From NCBI RefSeq assembly GCF_008629685.1, contig NZ_VWSF01000010.1, forward strand, positions 62,001-126,000: DNA of 64,000 nt, in the 5' to 3' direction. The DNA comes from Adhaeribacter rhizoryzae. Its GTDB lineage: Bacteria > Bacteroidota > Bacteroidia > Cytophagales > Hymenobacteraceae. Below, piece after piece: positions 22,277 to 47,355 of this stretch (position 1 is the stretch's first letter; each line of letters opens with the position of its first letter). The position numbers and the translations under genes were made by a program. The notes beneath the pieces were generated by a model, which saw only the letters and a list, made by a program, of their open reading frames with translations, did not search any database and was not told where the DNA came from.

Positions 22277-22634
22277 AGTTTTATTTTTTTATTTCGAGTT
22301 CATCGTTTAATACTGATGCCGACAAATTATGGTGTGTTTATGGTATAATTTTATAGCTAATAGACAATAAGTTAAAGACTGTTTTTTATAAACATTATTC
22401 ATCGATAAAATCAAATATCCATATTTTAAATAACTGGTTTTAAGTTAATTATTTTATAAATTTATATTATTCCTTAAACCTCACTCAAGTCATTCAGGAG
22501 GAAGCTATTTGGCTACTTGCTAAATAGTTTCCTCCTGAATGACAGAGATAGGCTTTAAGAACTAATTGAAAGTATACACTTTAGTTTGCGTACCATCAGG
22601 TAATATGTAAATCCAGATTTTGTAAATCACTACT
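22277..22634. other. 358-bp intergenic region between two SDR genes
   Basis: AT-rich, without a credible coding frame. Its one clear structure is the 55-bp palindrome at 22489-22543. Confidence 0.5.
22489..22543. repeat. 55-bp palindromic repeat (GTCATTCAGGAGGAA), copy 1
   Basis: Perfect 15-bp terminal inverted repeat GTCATTCAGGAGGAA/TTCCTCCTGAATGAC, with inner arms CTATTT/AAATAG. Flanking CTTAAA-CCT and AGGCTTTAAG extend the stem with a bulge. A second copy of the same length lies at 39361-39415. Confidence 0.85.
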
Positions 22635-39020: not shown

Positions 39021-39585
39021 TATTTTAATTTAAAATTGAGCGAAGGCAGGTTTAAGTTGTAGCCTGCTAATTAATTAGTTTTTGTATCCGGAATATTACG
39101 CCATTTACGGCTGCTTGCTTATAGCTTAACTTTTATTCTGATCCTACTACTTTACCTTTCCCCGCTAATACTGCTTGGCGGCTCGAATTTCAGAAATAAA
39201 TCAATTTCAGCTAACCAAATATTACTCCAATTTAGCAGCAATATGGATTTTAGTAGTAGCACAATAAAATTTGCCCCGTTAAATATTTACTTTTGTTAAT
39301 ATTTAAATTAATGCTACGCTAGTGTTTAAATTTAAATAGAAGTTCAAGCAGTCCATTTATGTCATTCAGGAGGAACCTATTTGGTTGCCTGCTAAATAGT
39401 TTCATCCTGAATGACACGAGTGGACTGCTTAGACCAAAAATCTGTTTCGTTTTAATCTTGTGGAACACGCAAATTATAATACTACTTTTTCCCCCACCTT
39501 AACTTTATTTCATTATTAAAGGCTTTATTTGCTGCTAATAGGAATATTCAACCTGAGTAAAAATTTATTACCTGAAACTGGTTTA
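39021..39585. other. 565-bp intergenic region between trp promoter and GH65 gene
   Basis: Besides the palindromic repeat at 39346-39430 nothing recognisable is present: no coding frame and no convincing promoter for the GH65 gene. Confidence 0.5.
39346..39430. repeat. Palindromic repeat (GTCATTCAGGAGGAA), copy 2, with extended arms
   Basis: The 55-bp core at 39361-39415 has the same arms as the copy at 22489-22543 (one mismatch, TTCATCCTGAATGAC). Here a further perfect 10-bp outer arm is present: AAGCAGTCCA at 39346-39355 and TGGACTGCTT at 39421-39430. The inner CTATTT/AAATAG arms are conserved. Confidence 0.85.
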
Positions 39586-41805
39586 ATGAAAAGATATTTA
39601 ACGCTTAACGAGTGGTCGCTAATTGAAGAGGGCTTTTACCCGGAGTACAATAAAATAACCGAAAGTGTTTGCAGCCTCGGCAACGGCCGCATGGGCCACC
39701 GGGCTAGTTTCGAAGAAAAATATTCCGGCGAAACCCAGCCAGGCCATTATGTAGCCGGCATTTCTGACCAGAATACCGGAACATCTGAATATTCTAACCA
39801 ACTACGCAACGCACCCAATTGGATAGGAATTAATGTAGAAATAGACGGAGAAGAACTCGATTTAGCTACTTGTCAGGTGCTGGATTTCCGGCGGGAACTA
39901 AATATGCGGGAAGGTTACTTGGAACGAACTTTTCAAGCGCAGCTGCCTAGCGGCAAAACCGTAGAAGTTTCTGCGTTGCGGTTTACGAGCATTGCCGACG
40001 ATGAACTGGGTGCTATCCGGTTTGCTATAATGCCTTTAAATTTTAGCGGGGCTATTTCGCTTACACCTTATATAGATGCCCATGTTAATACCACAAATAT
40101 TAATACAGAACAAAAATGGCAGGAGATTGACCGCGAAGTAGAACCGGGCGCTGGGTTTATTATTACCGAAACCCCCAATATCCCTTTCCAGGTTTGTACC
40201 GGCATGCGCCTGCAATTAGAAAAAGATAATGCCGGCGTAGAAACCACCGTGGCCCTGATTAGCCAGAATAATTATATTGGCAACCGCTTAACAGCTACCG
40301 TAAACGAAAACGAGCAACTGGTGCTCTATAAATACGCCGCCGTAGTAACTTCCGAAAATTACCCCACAGAAAAATTAGCTATTGCCTGTAATTTAGCCCT
40401 GGAACGCGCCAAGCAAATTGGTTTTGCCGAAATGTTGGATGTCCAATCGGCGGTTTGGGCCGAAAAGTGGCAACTCAGCGACCTGGTGATTAAAGGAGAT
40501 TTAGCGGCGCAGCAAGCCATCCGGTTTAATATTTTCAGTTTAAACCAAGCGTATACCGGCGAAGATGAAAGGCTGAATATTAGCCCGAGCGGGTTTACCG
40601 GTGAAACTTACGGCGATGCTACTACCTGGCCTACCGAAGTTTACTGCCTGCCCTTCTACCTGGCTACTACCGAGCCGCACGTGGCCCGCAACTTACTCGT
40701 TTACCAATACCAGCATTTGCCCAAAGCTATCGAAAATGCGCAAAAGTCAGGTTTTAACAATGGTGCTGCCCTGTTTTCCGAAAGTACCTTAAATGGAGGA
40801 GAAAACCTTGATAACCTGGAACTTATTGCTGCCGGAATTCACCGGAATGGCGCTATTGCTTTGGCCATTTACGATTACATCTGTTACACCGGCGATACAG
40901 AATATTTATACCAACACGGCTTAGAAATATTGGTGGGCATTGCTCGCTTTGGGGCACAACAGGTAAACTGGTCGGAGAAGAAAAACAAATACGAGCTTAA
41001 TCCTAATAATTGGTACACCAACGCACTAGCCGCCTGGACTTTGGAATATACTTTAGCCGCTTTGCAAGAGGTAAAACAAACCGCACCTACTCGTTACGAA
41101 GCTTTAAAAGAAATATTAAACTTCGACGAAGAAAAGGAAACTGCCAATTGGCTGGAAATATCAAATAAAATGTATTTCCCGGTAGACGAAGAAAAAGGTA
41201 TTTTTCTGCCACAGGATGGCTATTTAGAAAATGAACAAATATTAGAAACAAAACCCGAAACCAACGAGCAGCAGATAATACCGCACCCAGATGTGCTGGA
41301 AGGCTTATATTTTTTAGAAGAACGCTACGACTTAGCTGCCATTCGCCGGAATTACGATTTTTACGCAGCCCGCACCGGACAAAAAGCTGCTTCCTTACTG
41401 GGCATACACGCTGTTCTGGCTGCCAAACTAGGCTATTTAGAACAGGCTTACGATTATTTCATGCGTTCGGCCCGCTATAATTTAGACGATTACCGCCACG
41501 AAACCGAAAAAAGCTGCGACCTAACCAGCATGGCTGGTGCCTGGTTAGCGGTAGTAAAAGGTTTTGGCGGAATGCGCGTCCTTAATAATCAGCTTTATTT
41601 AAATCCAATTAAACCCGAGCAATGGCAATCTTACACTTTTAAAATCCGGTTCCAGGGCCATTTACTCGATATTACCGTTGCTCAATCTACTATTAAAATC
41701 CTGAACCAAGACGACCAACCGTTCACTTTTTACCTCTATGGCAAAGCAGAAAATATTCCGGCAAATAATATAGGCAGCTTTAAGCGGCAGCCTGAAAAGG
41801 TTTAA
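39586..41805 (+). CDS. Glycoside hydrolase family 65-like protein with degraded active site
   Basis: 739 aa from ATG 39586; a TTG 57 bases upstream is unlikely. Overall it is a full GH65 protein (maltose/kojibiose phosphorylase type): N-terminal beta-sandwich, helical barrel with RNLLVYQYQHLPKAIENAQK, IHRNGAIALAIYDY and TSMAGAWLAVVKGFGGMRVL, and C-terminal beta domain. The known functional motifs are altered: WDTE reads WPTE (348-351); the GPxEY loop with the catalytic acid Glu is absent between L471 and N475; KQADV reads PHPDV (566-570); HxSS reads QKAA (599-602). Phosphorolysis by the known mechanism is therefore unlikely. It heads a gene run with GH13, a sugar transporter and a kinase. Confidence 0.85.
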   Translation: MKRYLTLNEWSLIEEGFYPEYNKITESVCSLGNGRMGHRASFEEKYSGETQPGHYVAGISDQNTGTSEYSNQLRNAPNWIGINVEIDGEELDLATCQVLDFRRELNMREGYLERTFQAQLPSGKTVEVSALRFTSIADDELGAIRFAIMPLNFSGAISLTPYIDAHVNTTNINTEQKWQEIDREVEPGAGFIITETPNIPFQVCTGMRLQLEKDNAGVETTVALISQNNYIGNRLTATVNENEQLVLYKYAAVVTSENYPTEKLAIACNLALERAKQIGFAEMLDVQSAVWAEKWQLSDLVIKGDLAAQQAIRFNIFSLNQAYTGEDERLNISPSGFTGETYGDATTWPTEVYCLPFYLATTEPHVARNLLVYQYQHLPKAIENAQKSGFNNGAALFSESTLNGGENLDNLELIAAGIHRNGAIALAIYDYICYTGDTEYLYQHGLEILVGIARFGAQQVNWSEKKNKYELNPNNWYTNALAAWTLEYTLAALQEVKQTAPTRYEALKEILNFDEEKETANWLEISNKMYFPVDEEKGIFLPQDGYLENEQILETKPETNEQQIIPHPDVLEGLYFLEERYDLAAIRRNYDFYAARTGQKAASLLGIHAVLAAKLGYLEQAYDYFMRSARYNLDDYRHETEKSCDLTSMAGAWLAVVKGFGGMRVLNNQLYLNPIKPEQWQSYTFKIRFQGHLLDITVAQSTIKILNQDDQPFTFYLYGKAENIPANNIGSFKRQPEKV

Positions 41806-41961: not shown

Positions 41962-43800
41962 ATGTCGTTGCCTACTACTAATACTTTAATGCCGAAGTCC
42001 AATGAAACAATAACGCTTCCGCTTTCGCCGGATAATTACTCTGATGAACTTATAATCGATAATAAATTTATTATTTACCAGATATTTACCCGGCTTTTCG
42101 GCAATAAAAATACGACTAACAAAACTTACGGCAGCCTCGAAGAAAACGGCGTTGGCAAATTCAACGACATCACCGAAAAAGCTTTAGCCGAAATAAAAAA
42201 GCTAGGCACGACGCACGTTTGGTACACCGGCATTATCGAGCACGCCACCATGACCGACTATACTGCCTTTAATATTAAAACCGACGCTATTGATGTAGTG
42301 AAAGGCCGGGCCGGCTCGCCGTACGCCATAAAAGATTATTACGATGTAAATCCTGATTTAGCAGAAGATGTAAAAAACCGGATGGCCGAGTTCGAAGCCT
42401 TGGTGGACCGGACGCATCAACAAGGTTTAAAAGTAATAATTGATTTTGTGCCAAACCATGTAGCCCGCACTTACCATTCTGATGCGCGCCCCCCAGGAGT
42501 AGAAGATTTTGGTGCGCACGATAATACCCACGTTTCTTTTAGTCCGCAGAATAATTTTTACTACATACCGGGCCAGCAACTGGTTGTGCCCAAAGCATAT
42601 AATCCCTTAAGTAAAAATGAAAAAGGCCAGCAGGAAGAGGTAAAATTTGTAGAGAATCCCGCTAAAGTAACCGGTAACGATGTTTTCTCCGCCACACCTA
42701 CTATAAACGATTGGTTCGAAACCATTAAACTCAATTACGGGGTAGATATTCAGCACCACCGCACCAAGCACTTCGATCCTATACCAGATACCTGGTTAAA
42801 GATGCGCAACATTCTTTTATTCTGGGCTAAAAAAGGCGTAGATGGTTTCCGGTGCGATATGGCCGAAATGGTGCCGGTGGAGTTCTGGGCCTGGCTGATT
42901 CCGCAGATAAAGAGTTTTAACCAGGATATTATTTTTATTGCCGAAATCTACAATCCGCACGAATATCACAACTACATTCAACAAGGTAAATTCGATTTCT
43001 TGTACGATAAAGTAGGTTTATACGACAGCCTTCGGCGCTTAATGGAAGGTAAGGGAAACACCGCCGATATTACCAGGTCGTGGAAAGAAGAAACGCGGGG
43101 TATAGGCTCGCACATGCTGCGTTTTCTGGAAAACCACGATGAGCAGCGCATTGCCTCTAATCATTTTGCCGGCAATCCTTGGGCAGCCGTTCCGGCCATG
43201 ACCGTTTCGGCTACGCTGGCCTCAGGACCAATTATGCTATATTTTGGCCAGGAAGTTGGCGAACCGGGTAAAGGTACCGAAGGTTTCCAGGGCGAAGACG
43301 GGCGTACCACTATTTTTGATTATTGGGGCGTGCCCGAACACCAAAAATGGATGAACAACGGCCAATTTGATGGCGGCGGCTTAAGCCCCGAACAACGCAG
43401 TTTAAGAAATTTCTACCGCCAGTTATTAAGCCTGGTGCGGGAAGAAGAAGTCCTCCGAACCGGTCAGTTTTACCAATTACACCCGCACTCGGTCGGCGAC
43501 CATGGCCACGGCACTCATAAAATATATGCTTACCTGCGGCATACGCCCCAAAAGAAAATATTAGTAGTCGTTAACTTCGATCGCAATCAAACCATTCAGG
43601 CCAATATTCCCATTCACGAACCTGAACTAAAGCTTGTGGCTGCAAACCATAACCATTTAAAAATAAACGAAATATTAACAGTTTCGCCAGACCCGGAAGC
43701 AAAATATATTACCACAGACAGAACGAGCCACGTTGTAGGCTACATTAACTTAAAGCTACCGCCGTTCAGCGCCTATATTTTTAATTTAACTGGAGAATAA
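41962..43800 (+). CDS. Cytoplasmic GH13 alpha-amylase-family enzyme
   Basis: 612 aa, no signal peptide. The four GH13 regions are intact: DFVPNH at 161-166, GFRCDMAE with nucleophile Asp299, FIAEIY with acid/base Glu328, and ENHDEQR with transition-state Asp393. The start KFIIYQIFTRLFGNKN and a long insert around residues 170-260 fit the alpha-amylase/neopullulanase-like group common in Bacteroidota. The C-terminal beta domain (KKILVVVNFDRNQ) is present. It probably acts on imported malto-oligosaccharides, together with the transporter encoded 75 bases downstream. Exact specificity is open. Confidence 0.88.
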   Translation: MSLPTTNTLMPKSNETITLPLSPDNYSDELIIDNKFIIYQIFTRLFGNKNTTNKTYGSLEENGVGKFNDITEKALAEIKKLGTTHVWYTGIIEHATMTDYTAFNIKTDAIDVVKGRAGSPYAIKDYYDVNPDLAEDVKNRMAEFEALVDRTHQQGLKVIIDFVPNHVARTYHSDARPPGVEDFGAHDNTHVSFSPQNNFYYIPGQQLVVPKAYNPLSKNEKGQQEEVKFVENPAKVTGNDVFSATPTINDWFETIKLNYGVDIQHHRTKHFDPIPDTWLKMRNILLFWAKKGVDGFRCDMAEMVPVEFWAWLIPQIKSFNQDIIFIAEIYNPHEYHNYIQQGKFDFLYDKVGLYDSLRRLMEGKGNTADITRSWKEETRGIGSHMLRFLENHDEQRIASNHFAGNPWAAVPAMTVSATLASGPIMLYFGQEVGEPGKGTEGFQGEDGRTTIFDYWGVPEHQKWMNNGQFDGGGLSPEQRSLRNFYRQLLSLVREEEVLRTGQFYQLHPHSVGDHGHGTHKIYAYLRHTPQKKILVVVNFDRNQTIQANIPIHEPELKLVAANHNHLKINEILTVSPDPEAKYITTDRTSHVVGYINLKLPPFSAYIFNLTGE

Positions 43801-43821
43801 AGGCTTAAAATTTAAGCCTTT
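43799..43821 (+). terminator. Weak hairpin after the GH13 gene
   Basis: AAAGGCTT/AAGCCTTT with a short AT loop and a broken T tract. It could attenuate transcription into the transporter gene. Confidence 0.35.
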
Positions 43822-43875
43822 ATCCTTATTATAGGTAAATATTAAGACCAGATTAAATACGCCTCACCCACCCCC

Positions 43876-45198
43876 ATGCATACCCAAACATCAACCCTGC
43901 CCTTGCCTACTAAACCAAGGCTTAGTTTCTGGCAAATCTGGAATATGAGCTTTGGCTTTTTAGGCATTCAGTTTGGCTTTGCCCTACAAAACGCCAATAC
44001 CAGCCGTATTTTCGAAACGTTAGGGGGCACCGAAATTGCCTTATACTGGCTGGCCGCTCCGGTTACGGGTTTGGTGGTGCAGCCTATTATTGGTTACCTC
44101 AGCGACCGAACCTGGAGCCCAACCTGGGGCCGGCGTCGTCCTTTCTTTATGATTGGTGCTGTATTGGCTTCGCTGGCGCTCATTTTAATGCCTAATTCGT
44201 CGGTGCTTTGGATGGCGGTGGGCATGCTCTGGATTATGGATACCTCTATTAATATTTCGATGGAACCCTTCCGGGCTTTGGTGGGCGATCTTTTACCCTC
44301 GGAGCAACGGACTACCGGCTTTGCGGCCCAAACCTTTTTTATTGGAATAGGTGCGGTAGTTGCCTCCATGTTGCCCTGGATGTTTACCAATTGGTTTGGG
44401 GTAGATAATACCGCACCGGCCGGCGAAATCCCGGATTCCGTAAAATGGTCGTTTTACATGGGGGCATTTGCCTTTTTTACCGCCGTACTCTGGACCGTTA
44501 TTAAAACCAAAGAATACCCGCCCCACGACATGGCAGCCTTTGCCGCTGAAAAAGCGCAAACCAGCTTTATGCACGGGGTACAGGAAACTTTAAGTGGCAT
44601 TGTAACCATGCCCAAAACCATGCGGCAACTGGCGGTGGTACAATTTTTTTCGTGGTTTGCGCTATTTTCTTTGTGGATTTACACCACCAAAGCCGTTACG
44701 CAGCACGTGTATGGCACCTCTGATCCCATCTCAGCTTTATACAACGAAGGAGCCGATTGGGTAGGTGTCTGTTTCGCGGTGTATAATGGCGTTTCGGCGC
44801 TAGCGGCCTTGTTATTGCCGCTACTGGCCCGGGTTACTAACCGGAAAATAACGCACTTAATTTGTTTGTGCTGCGGTGGTATTGGCCTGATATCTACCTA
44901 CTTTATTTCTGATCCTAACTTATTGTTAATATCTATGGTGGGTGTGGGCGTTGCCTGGTCGAGTATTTTATCTATGCCTTATGCTATTCTGGCGGGTGCC
45001 TTACCAGCGCATAAAATGGGGTTTTATATGGGGGTGTTTAACTTTTTTATTGTAATTCCGCAAATTGTGGCTGGTTCTGTCCTGGGCTTTTTTACCGAAA
45101 AATTATTTGACGGACAGGCCATTTACACCTTAATAGTAGGCGGTTGCGCCATGATTATATCGGGTTTTTTAACCTTGCTGGTACAGGATTCCGATTAA
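43876..45198 (+). CDS. SLC45-like MFS sugar transporter
   Basis: 440 aa with 12 predicted membrane helices. The start LSFWQIWNMSFGFLGIQFGFALQNANTSRIF is characteristic of the bacterial sucrose/maltose (SLC45/GPH-like) group; GYLSDRTWSPTWGRRRPFF is the MFS loop-2 motif and EPFRALVGDLLPSEQR follows. It is likely a proton-coupled importer for maltose, sucrose or larger glucosides. Genomic context (GH65-like and GH13 upstream) favours alpha-glucosides. Confidence 0.87.
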   Translation: MHTQTSTLPLPTKPRLSFWQIWNMSFGFLGIQFGFALQNANTSRIFETLGGTEIALYWLAAPVTGLVVQPIIGYLSDRTWSPTWGRRRPFFMIGAVLASLALILMPNSSVLWMAVGMLWIMDTSINISMEPFRALVGDLLPSEQRTTGFAAQTFFIGIGAVVASMLPWMFTNWFGVDNTAPAGEIPDSVKWSFYMGAFAFFTAVLWTVIKTKEYPPHDMAAFAAEKAQTSFMHGVQETLSGIVTMPKTMRQLAVVQFFSWFALFSLWIYTTKAVTQHVYGTSDPISALYNEGADWVGVCFAVYNGVSALAALLLPLLARVTNRKITHLICLCCGGIGLISTYFISDPNLLLISMVGVGVAWSSILSMPYAILAGALPAHKMGFYMGVFNFFIVIPQIVAGSVLGFFTEKLFDGQAIYTLIVGGCAMIISGFLTLLVQDSD

Positions 45199-45424: not shown

Positions 45425-46282
45425 ATGATTATTATTGCTGATGGTGGTTCAACCAAAACGAGCTGGTGCTTAATTACAGAATCTAATTCTAAAGTCTATT
45501 TCAATACCGAAGGGTATAACCCATATTTTTCCGACACCCCTACCATTATTTCTTCCCTGCAAAAAAACTTACCCGAAAACTTACAGAAAACAGCTGTATC
45601 GGAGGTATATTATTATGGGGCAGGATGTTCTACGCCGGAAAATAACGAAATAGTAGCGGCTGCCATGCGCGCTGTTTTCACCACAGCAAAAGTAAAAGTA
45701 GGTCACGATTTGCTGGCTGCGGCCCGCGCGTTGCTGGGCGTTGATGCCGGCTTTGCGGCTATCTTGGGTACTGGTACCAACACCTGCTTTTACGACGGCC
45801 ATGACGTAACCATGAACATCGACTCGCTGGGTTATTTCCTGGGCGACGAAGGCAGTGGGTCTTCTTTGGGCAAGCGCTTACTACGCGATTATATGCGGGG
45901 TTATTTACCCGAAGGCATGTCTAAAATATTTAAAGATACTTACGAACTCGATAACGAAGCAATATTCGATCATCTTTACAACAAACCTTTACCCAACCGC
46001 TTTTTAGCTAGTTTCAGCAAATTCTTATACGAAAACAATAACTTTTCTTATTCCCGCGAAGTGGTGAAAGAATCGTTCGATGCTTTCTTTAGAAACTTAG
46101 TTTGCCACTACCCCGGTTATCAGGATCATACTTTTAATTGCGTAGGTTCCGTAGCTTACAATTTCCGCGATATTCTGGAAGAAGTAGCTTTGGAGCACGG
46201 CATGGAAATGGGTACCATTATCAGATCCCCAATAGATAATTTGGTTTATTACCACCAAGTATTAGCCAAAAGCGATTTATAA
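45425..46282 (+). CDS. BadF/BadG-type ATPase, probable N-acetylglucosamine kinase
   Basis: 285 aa ASKHA-fold kinase. Phosphate-1 motif IIIADGGSTKTSW at the start, YYYGAGCSTPEN, second phosphate loop AILGTGTNTCFYDG, and GYFLGDEGSGSSLGKRLLRDY, which is highly typical of glucosamine/N-acetylglucosamine kinases of this family. It would phosphorylate amino sugars from cell-wall recycling or diet. It is 226 bases downstream of the transporter, so it may be separately transcribed. Confidence 0.85.
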   Translation: MIIIADGGSTKTSWCLITESNSKVYFNTEGYNPYFSDTPTIISSLQKNLPENLQKTAVSEVYYYGAGCSTPENNEIVAAAMRAVFTTAKVKVGHDLLAAARALLGVDAGFAAILGTGTNTCFYDGHDVTMNIDSLGYFLGDEGSGSSLGKRLLRDYMRGYLPEGMSKIFKDTYELDNEAIFDHLYNKPLPNRFLASFSKFLYENNNFSYSREVVKESFDAFFRNLVCHYPGYQDHTFNCVGSVAYNFRDILEEVALEHGMEMGTIIRSPIDNLVYYHQVLAKSDL

Positions 46283-46383: not shown

Positions 46384-47355
46384 TTGAAGCTAAAAAATCT
46401 TTTTTTCCCGCATAGCTCCCTTTATACCCGTTTAAAGAAATTAAGCTGGTTGCTTTTGTTTTGCCCAATATATTCTTACCAAACATTTGCCCAGCCAACT
46501 ACTACTATTGTTGCTGATACGATTACACCTGCTCTCGATAAGCTTAAGCCTGCCAAAGGTCTGAAATTAGCCGCGGCCGGACTAGCCATAGGCTATACGG
46601 GTATGTTAGTGGGCCTGAGCCAAACCTGGTACGATAAATCCGAAAAAACAAAATTCCATTTTTTTAACGATAACCCGGAATGGCAGCAACTAGACAAAGT
46701 GGGGCATTTTTGGGGCGCTTTCCACGAGAGCCGCTTAGGCATTGATGCCCTGCGCGCCGCCAGGGTACCCGAGCAAAAAGCTATCATTTACGGCAGCTTA
46801 CTGGGTTTTGCCTTACAATCGCCGATAGAACTACTGGATGGTTACGCCGCCGAATACGGCGCTTCGGTGGGCGATTTAGGAGCCAATGCAGCGGGTTCTT
46901 TGGCGGTACTGGTTCAGCAGTTGGCCTGGGGCGAGTTAAAAATAATGCCTAAGTTTTCTTTTCACCGGACACCTTACGCCCGGCTGCGGCCAAATATTTT
47001 GGGCAGCAATTTACCCGAAGAAATATTAAAGGATTATAATGGGCAAACGTATTGGCTCGCTGCAGATATTGCTGCGTTTTTAACATCCCAAAGCCGCTAT
47101 CCCAAATGGCTGAATCTGGCGTTGGGCTACGGTGGGCAGCGCATGGTTTACGGCATGCCTCAAGAAAATAACCAGAACGGCTTTGATGCTTACCGGCAAT
47201 ATTATTTGGCTTTAGATTTAAATTTATTGCATGTAAAAACCCGGCATAAATTATTGCGCACGGCCTTCAGCGTTATCAGCATGGTTCATTTGCCAGCCCC
47301 TACCCTGGAGTATAACCGGAAAAAAGGTTTACGCTTTCACCCCGTTTATTTTTAA
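46384..47355 (+). CDS. DUF2279 family exported protein
   Basis: 323 aa. The start is taken as TTG 46384, because the next ATG lies inside the mature domain and would remove the signal peptide (SWLLLFCPIYSYQTFAQ). The DUF2279/YfiM-like core is WYDKSEKTKFHFFNDNPEWQ, QLDKVGHFWGAFHESRLG, then SLLGFALQSPIELLDG and GDLGANAAGSLAV; the DK-x-GH and GxxGANxxGS motifs are shared with YfiM-type membrane proteins. Likely an envelope protein; function unknown. Confidence 0.75.
   Translation: MKLKNLFFPHSSLYTRLKKLSWLLLFCPIYSYQTFAQPTTTIVADTITPALDKLKPAKGLKLAAAGLAIGYTGMLVGLSQTWYDKSEKTKFHFFNDNPEWQQLDKVGHFWGAFHESRLGIDALRAARVPEQKAIIYGSLLGFALQSPIELLDGYAAEYGASVGDLGANAAGSLAVLVQQLAWGELKIMPKFSFHRTPYARLRPNILGSNLPEEILKDYNGQTYWLAADIAAFLTSQSRYPKWLNLALGYGGQRMVYGMPQENNQNGFDAYRQYYLALDLNLLHVKTRHKLLRTAFSVISMVHLPAPTLEYNRKKGLRFHPVYF

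Follow-up and report, generated by a model that had tools for sequence, protein, structure and literature searches.

A maltose phosphorylase-type GH65 protein of Adhaeribacter that has lost nearly all known active-site residues is probably a pseudoenzyme under purifying selection

Pseudoenzymes are usually thought to arise beside an active duplicate. In the genome of Adhaeribacter rhizoryzae, the sole GH65 found appears to have been disarmed, and the enzyme that acts next in its pathway has been lost as well; the question is whether such a gene is decaying or is kept in another role. The gene lies at 39586-41805 on the + strand of a 64,000-nucleotide stretch of contig NZ_VWSF01000010.1 (the window). 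An earlier note, made from the sequence alone, had described a 739-aa GH65 frame with every active-site motif lost and had proposed, in preference to random decay, either a pseudoenzyme that senses sugar or partners the adjacent GH13 enzyme or transporter, or else a different chemistry. We compared the gene with its orthologues, including those of the sister species (G001) and the next congener (G007); the genus sample comprised eight genomes, the window genome (G000) included. Intact, partly altered, and fully altered GH65 proteins across these related species provide a tractable series for the question of how an enzyme becomes a non-enzyme.

The frame and its length are as first described; the longest open frame starts at TTG 39529, and the starts of the orthologues line up with the ATG at 39586. 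The protein carries the N-terminal, central, and C-terminal GH65 Pfam domains, each above cut-off: PF03636 (209.9 bits, model positions 2-233 of 233), PF03632 (254.8 bits, 1-370 of 371), and PF03633 (55.5 bits, 1-58 of 62). By sequence, its closest solved structure is the Lactobacillus brevis maltose phosphorylase 1h54 (EC 2.4.1.8; phmmer, E=2.7e-134, residues 1-719), and its score against the maltose phosphorylase-type model NCBIfam PRK13807 was 721.3 bits, under the curated cut-off of 838. A scan of genome contigs yielded three matching loci, L047 (in G007), L048 (42%), and L049 (26%), which were used solely in the structure-prediction alignment, while a scan of viral contigs for relatives found none. 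AlphaFold2 reached a pLDDT of 34 on the single sequence and a mean pLDDT of 61 (pTM 0.53) with four sequences. Foldseek's best PDB match for the latter, low-confidence model was again 1h54 (TM 0.73), which supports retention of the GH65 fold at the level of the overall fold only, not of pocket geometry.

The available sections of PMC8626586 describe the GH65 active site as a -1 subsite of Trp, Asp, Lys, and Gln, a general acid, and a phosphate site of two Ser, His, and Lys. Those of PMC8537180 place a maltose-recognition HNE motif in loop 3 and report that an N-terminal loop of the L. brevis enzyme takes part in the active site, which we infer to be the GWWKNG loop. The reference residues in the G007 orthologue are W357, D358, K601, Q602, E488, S636, S637, H680, K344, and H417-N418-E419; K344 and H680, the probable phosphate-site Lys and His, were placed by spacing, following the accessible text of PMC8626586. 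The orthologue search matched 105 of 390 genomes; 30 matches were developed into loci, and 21 of these (L086-L106) were added to 30 earlier canonical orthologues. The full-length alignment therefore held 53 orthologues: the window protein, that of G001, and 51 others termed canonical, a split set after the alignment had been viewed. Distant GH65 homologues (L018-L030) are outside the counts, and a 541-aa frame (L075) was excluded from trees and counts. All 12 active-site columns were invariant in the 51 canonical orthologues. At the same positions the window protein has W, P, P, H, Lys or a gap, A, A, D, S, and L-D-N, a loss of 11 of the 12 residues. The claim that every motif was lost is thus slightly too strong, as the Trp of the -1 subsite is retained.

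Along the gene (all positions on the + strand), five gaps of 8, 1, 11, 1, and 14 aa were found, and no stop codon. The 8-aa deletion cuts into the GWWKNG loop, leaving a remnant at 39763-39786 (YYPDKTRVGWWKNGYP in the G007 orthologue, also given as DKTRVGWWKNGYP), and Ser stands at the probable phosphate-site Lys (40588-40590). WDTE has become WPTE (W348-P-T-E, 40627-40638), so that the -1 Asp is replaced by Pro beside the retained Trp, and LDN replaces the HNE maltose motif at 40807-40815. The general-acid loop is reduced to a remnant at 40975-41010 by the 11-aa deletion (L032 476-486) and a further 1-aa gap (493). At 41269-41295, the 14-aa deletion cuts into the NQKWSWDRILRSCF segment (L032 586-599), and the Lys-Gln of the -1 subsite has become Pro-His (P566-H-P-D-V in place of KQADV). 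QKAA (Q599-K-A-A, 41380-41391) replaces HESS, with Ala at both phosphate-binding Ser, and Asp replaces the probable phosphate-site His (D645, 41518-41520).

The WPTE, PHPDV, and QKAA substitutions and the loss of the acid loop had been named in the earlier note, and the alignment bears them out. The exact position of the 11-residue gap, near 466-475, depends on the aligner, as phmmer and MAFFT place it differently; neither aligns a Glu with the acid position, where all 51 canonical orthologues have one. The N-terminal and 14-aa deletions, the change from HNE to LDN, and the replacement of the phosphate-site Lys and His by Ser and Asp had been missed. Overall, 95 of the 251 columns invariant in the canonical orthologues are altered in the window protein. 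When 15 canonical orthologues were each left out in turn, they showed 0-34 changes in the 315-349 columns invariant among the others, which places the loss in the window protein beyond chance. A protein altered in this way would be incapable of phosphorolysis or of GH65-type inverting hydrolysis.

The next enzyme of the pathway, beta-phosphoglucomutase, was sought in 15 genomes with the curated model TIGR01990 (cut-off 189.4 bits). All 13 of these genomes that have an intact GH65 passed the cut-off, whereas neither of the two with an altered one did; the best matches in G000 and G001 scored 135.1 and 135.2 bits. By this cut-off, the maltose phosphorolysis pathway of G000 lacks its beta-phosphoglucomutase. 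No remnant of the enzyme was detected in the 760-bp spacer upstream of the window GH65 gene (tblastn, up to E 10). HAD proteins were considered as replacements and rejected, as all scored below the cut-off and similar ones co-occur with the true enzyme elsewhere. Almost all known active-site residues were lost in a lineage of which both known members are also without beta-phosphoglucomutase, while the protein remained under purifying selection overall, as described below.

The altered form was found in two genomes, G000 and G001, at different stages. Identity between the two is 94-98% for the trp and response-regulator genes, 83% for a DUF2279 protein, 77% for the neighbouring GH13 protein, and 63% for GH65. 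The G001 protein retains the acid, the Trp-Asp pair, one Ser, and two His; it lacks the GWWKNG sequence, K344, KQ (now QP), one Ser, and two residues of HNE, so that 6 of the 12 residues are lost. With the acid and WDTE retained, the G001 protein may yet have activity, or it may be in the course of being lost. The G007 orthologue is canonical, with a short branch of 0.056. In the tree, the window and G001 branches measured 0.48 and 0.37 on a common stem of 0.25, and their clade had 100/100 support; both were flagged by the tree tool as long branches, and neighbour identity and gene order yield the same pairing. Of the 251 invariant columns, 95 are changed in the window protein and 69 in that of G001; 48 are changed in both (hypergeometric P 3e-10), 8 of them to an identical residue. 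These data show that the acceleration of GH65 began on the common stem, before the two species split.

We estimated selection with a branch model on nine sequences, using our own implementation. The ratio dN/dS (omega), an estimate that the earlier note had called for, was 0.159 on the window branch (773 codons), 0.212 on the G001 branch, 0.217 on the common stem, and 0.074 on the remainder. The window value is significantly below 1: fixing that branch at 1 gave a 2dlnL of 69.7 and fixing it at the background value gave 20.4, while fixing the G001 branch at 1 gave 31.9. In columns invariant in 30 canonical orthologues, window-branch omega was 0.179 against a background of 0.003 and still below 1 (2dlnL 29.1); in other columns it was 0.149, not clearly above background (2dlnL 3.2). 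Constraint at the formerly invariant sites has thus fallen to the level of ordinary sites and has not gone. Inside the altered segments, which were picked after the alignment had been viewed, omega was 0.317 against a background of 0.025, and outside them 0.113 against 0.086; a repeat used columns defined by the canonical set. Pairwise GH65 values were 0.165 (G000-G001), 0.122 (G000-G007), and 0.150 (G001-G007), at a dS of 1.3-1.8. Among the neighbours, the trp genes, the NagK-like gene, and Smr gave 0.02-0.10, GH13 0.12-0.13, and DUF2279 0.12-0.16, as high as GH65. The GH65 omega may be underestimated, because the G000-G001 dS of GH65 (1.39) exceeds that of six neighbours (0.445-0.956; GH13, 1.09); dividing the GH65 dN of 0.229 by the neighbours' dS arithmetically gives an omega of 0.24-0.51. 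Judged from sequence, the protein would fit the description of a pseudoenzyme in part, as an enzyme homologue that lacks catalytic residues under purifying selection, while the absence of stop codons and an omega well separated from 1 set the gene apart from a pseudogene.

We favour, with a probability of roughly two in three, the reading that the window gene encodes a GH65 pseudoenzyme which purifying selection has preserved since the phosphorolysis pathway was taken apart, and which most likely acts without catalysis, as a partner or a regulator of the GH13 protein encoded downstream. Purifying selection, the intact frame, the single GH65, and beta-phosphoglucomutase loss in both genomes support the earlier suggestion of a pseudoenzyme as opposed to random decay. 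A heterodimer with an active GH65 was ruled out, as a protein search and a Pfam model found one GH65 in G000.

Slow loss under weak constraint is the main rival, and we consider it unlikely. The pathway would have been abandoned with the loss of beta-phosphoglucomutase, leaving a gene whose constraint is weak and fading, for example acting solely against misfolding, and which has yet to acquire a stop. Such a history is consistent with the missing beta-phosphoglucomutase in both genomes, with the lack of a match in G001 to the transporter of the window locus, and with the length of the two altered branches compared to that of G007. Formerly invariant columns also change about as readily as others, both in omega and in that family conservation barely predicts which residues are retained: the AUC was 0.55 for the window protein and 0.60 for that of G001, compared to 0.88-0.97 for nine canonical controls, a chosen part of the 50 available. 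This pattern is likewise expected under broad relaxation. Against slow loss, omega is below 1 on both branches, and both frames have stayed open despite an acceleration that predates the species split. In 300 neutral simulations of the G007 gene, about 31 stops were predicted at 0.81 substitutions per site, the fitted length of the window branch, compared to none observed; stop-free runs made up 5% at 0.03 substitutions per site and did not occur at 0.1 or more. On this basis, no more than a small, recent part of the window branch can have gone unconstrained.

Recombination or transfer from an unsampled relative, which would detach the fast change from this lineage, seems quite unlikely, and it would be compatible with the other readings. 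The raised dS of GH65 and GH13 relative to the six neighbours, and the near-equidistance of the three GH65 pairs, point in that direction. Against this, GH65 occupies an identical location between the trp genes and a NagK-like gene in G000, G001, and G007, and the closest sequences found are those of its two congeners. A leader segment at 39522-39554 (+) is also common to G000 and G001 and was not seen upstream of GH65 in G007. Moreover, such an event would not restore the active site.

A new chemistry, with the pocket remade around other catalytic residues to give a different enzyme, is very unlikely in our view. Selection does act on residues unlike those of the GH65 family, and nine Asp or Glu residues of the window protein occupy positions that have neither in any canonical orthologue, several of them inside altered segments (D344, 40615-40617; E399, 40780-40782; D409, 40810-40812; D645). 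There is also a precedent: according to the available sections of PMC8626586, GH65 has switched from phosphorolysis to hydrolysis with a Glu base replacing the phosphate site. However, the hydrolases described there retain the acid and the -1 subsite, which here are largely gone together with parts of three loops, and none of the four new acids is common to G001; the Asp and Glu residues that are common to both altered proteins and present in under 10% of the canonical set lie outside those four sites. An assembly or sequencing artefact is practically negligible and found no support, given that the frame is open, the neighbouring genes are intact, and a second genome carries a related altered form.

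Returning to the pseudoenzyme reading, a preserved GH65 scaffold would now serve in a non-catalytic role, most likely, though with less confidence, by binding or regulating the GH13 protein encoded directly downstream. This alpha-amylase-type protein (41962-43800, +; PF00128) has its conserved positions intact and is the candidate partner because it alone of the usual maltose cluster stays beside GH65 in both altered genomes. GFRCDMAEM, IAEIYN, and ENHDEQR are present, which we take to be motifs of catalytic meaning. Fully conserved GH13 columns are retained at 238 of 240 in the window and 231 of 240 in G001, compared to 272 and 302 of 412 for GH65. Family conservation predicted which residues are retained somewhat less well in these two GH13 proteins (AUC 0.88 and 0.85) than in other GH13s (0.92-0.97), and far better than in the GH65 proteins (0.55 and 0.58). 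A terminator-like hairpin with a 12-pair stem and a T-rich tail (43797-43823, +) begins at the GH13 stop codon, and no such site was detected on the + strand between GH65 and GH13 by a consensus-only scan that was barely above shuffles (12 sites in the region, 9.0 in shuffles); this arrangement suggests that the two genes may be cotranscribed.

Farther downstream lies an MFS/GPH-type transporter (43876-45198, +) for which neither G001 nor G007 (78% complete) yielded a match at E<=0.001, and because of its lack in G001 a partnership of GH65 with this transporter is less likely. In 10 of 16 relative loci, GH65 is followed directly by GH13 and the MFS transporter; three (G001, G007, and G004) have GH13 and lack that MFS gene at the locus, and three from other families of the order have a different layout; the NagK-like gene is also nearby in G000, G001, and G007. 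A remodelled GH65 pocket could possibly still sense an alpha-glucoside. A more specific scenario, in which a metabolic phosphorylase became a dedicated non-catalytic subunit or sensor controlling GH13 without an active duplicate, with G001 as a living intermediate, we regard as tentative and rather doubtful.

The window protein resembles maltose phosphorylase by sequence and fold match, and canonical orthologues of that type occupy the same locus in relatives. It differs in lacking the general acid, the phosphate site, HNE, and most of the -1 subsite, in a genome without beta-phosphoglucomutase above the curated cut-off. The kojibiose hydrolase/alpha-1,2-glucosidase FjGH65A likewise has its phosphate-site serines replaced; as described in the accessible part of PMC8626586, it carries a Glu base and has kept both the general acid and the -1 subsite, whereas the window protein lacks the acid and most of that subsite. 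The accessible part of PMC8537180 mentions 59 acid-less GH65 sequences from CAZy that were dropped ahead of a family analysis; these likewise lack the acid and may include relatives of the window protein. In Arabidopsis, BAM4 and BAM9 are members of a starch-degrading family without measurable hydrolysis that act as pathway regulators, according to PMC8774843. They belong to another family and kingdom and stand beside active paralogues, whereas the altered GH65 is the only one found in its genome. No GH65 pseudoenzyme or catalytically inactive maltose phosphorylase was found in the literature searched, which left most subscription journals outside. Pseudoenzymes themselves are known, and what would be new is one derived from GH65, a family without a described case in that literature. 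Family-level annotation would assign G000 a maltose phosphorylase that is very probably absent.

Several further features of these loci were observed. Upstream of GH65, a palindromic element of about 85 bases (39346-39430) recurs at 22482-22580 (56 bases, 91% identity) and resembles a small dispersed repeat. In G001 (L031 4701-9429), four genes lie between trpE and GH65, by eye two esterase-like, one NUDIX-like, and one SGNH-hydrolase-like, where the window has a spacer alone. By eye, the N terminus of the GH13 protein carries a signal- or lipobox-like segment in several relatives and none in the window, G001, or G007, which suggests that the protein may have changed compartment. GH65 is seemingly incomplete in G178 (L075), where the 541-aa frame matches residues 275 onward, and lies in two separate pieces at G352:C153:19726-22024; an assembly error is possible in both cases. 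A DUF2279 protein (46384-47355) is fast-evolving among more conserved neighbours (dN 0.20, G000-G007). The kinase-like protein at 45425-46282, a weak match to a NagK model, shows 95% identity among the three close genomes, in each of which it comes after the sugar genes.
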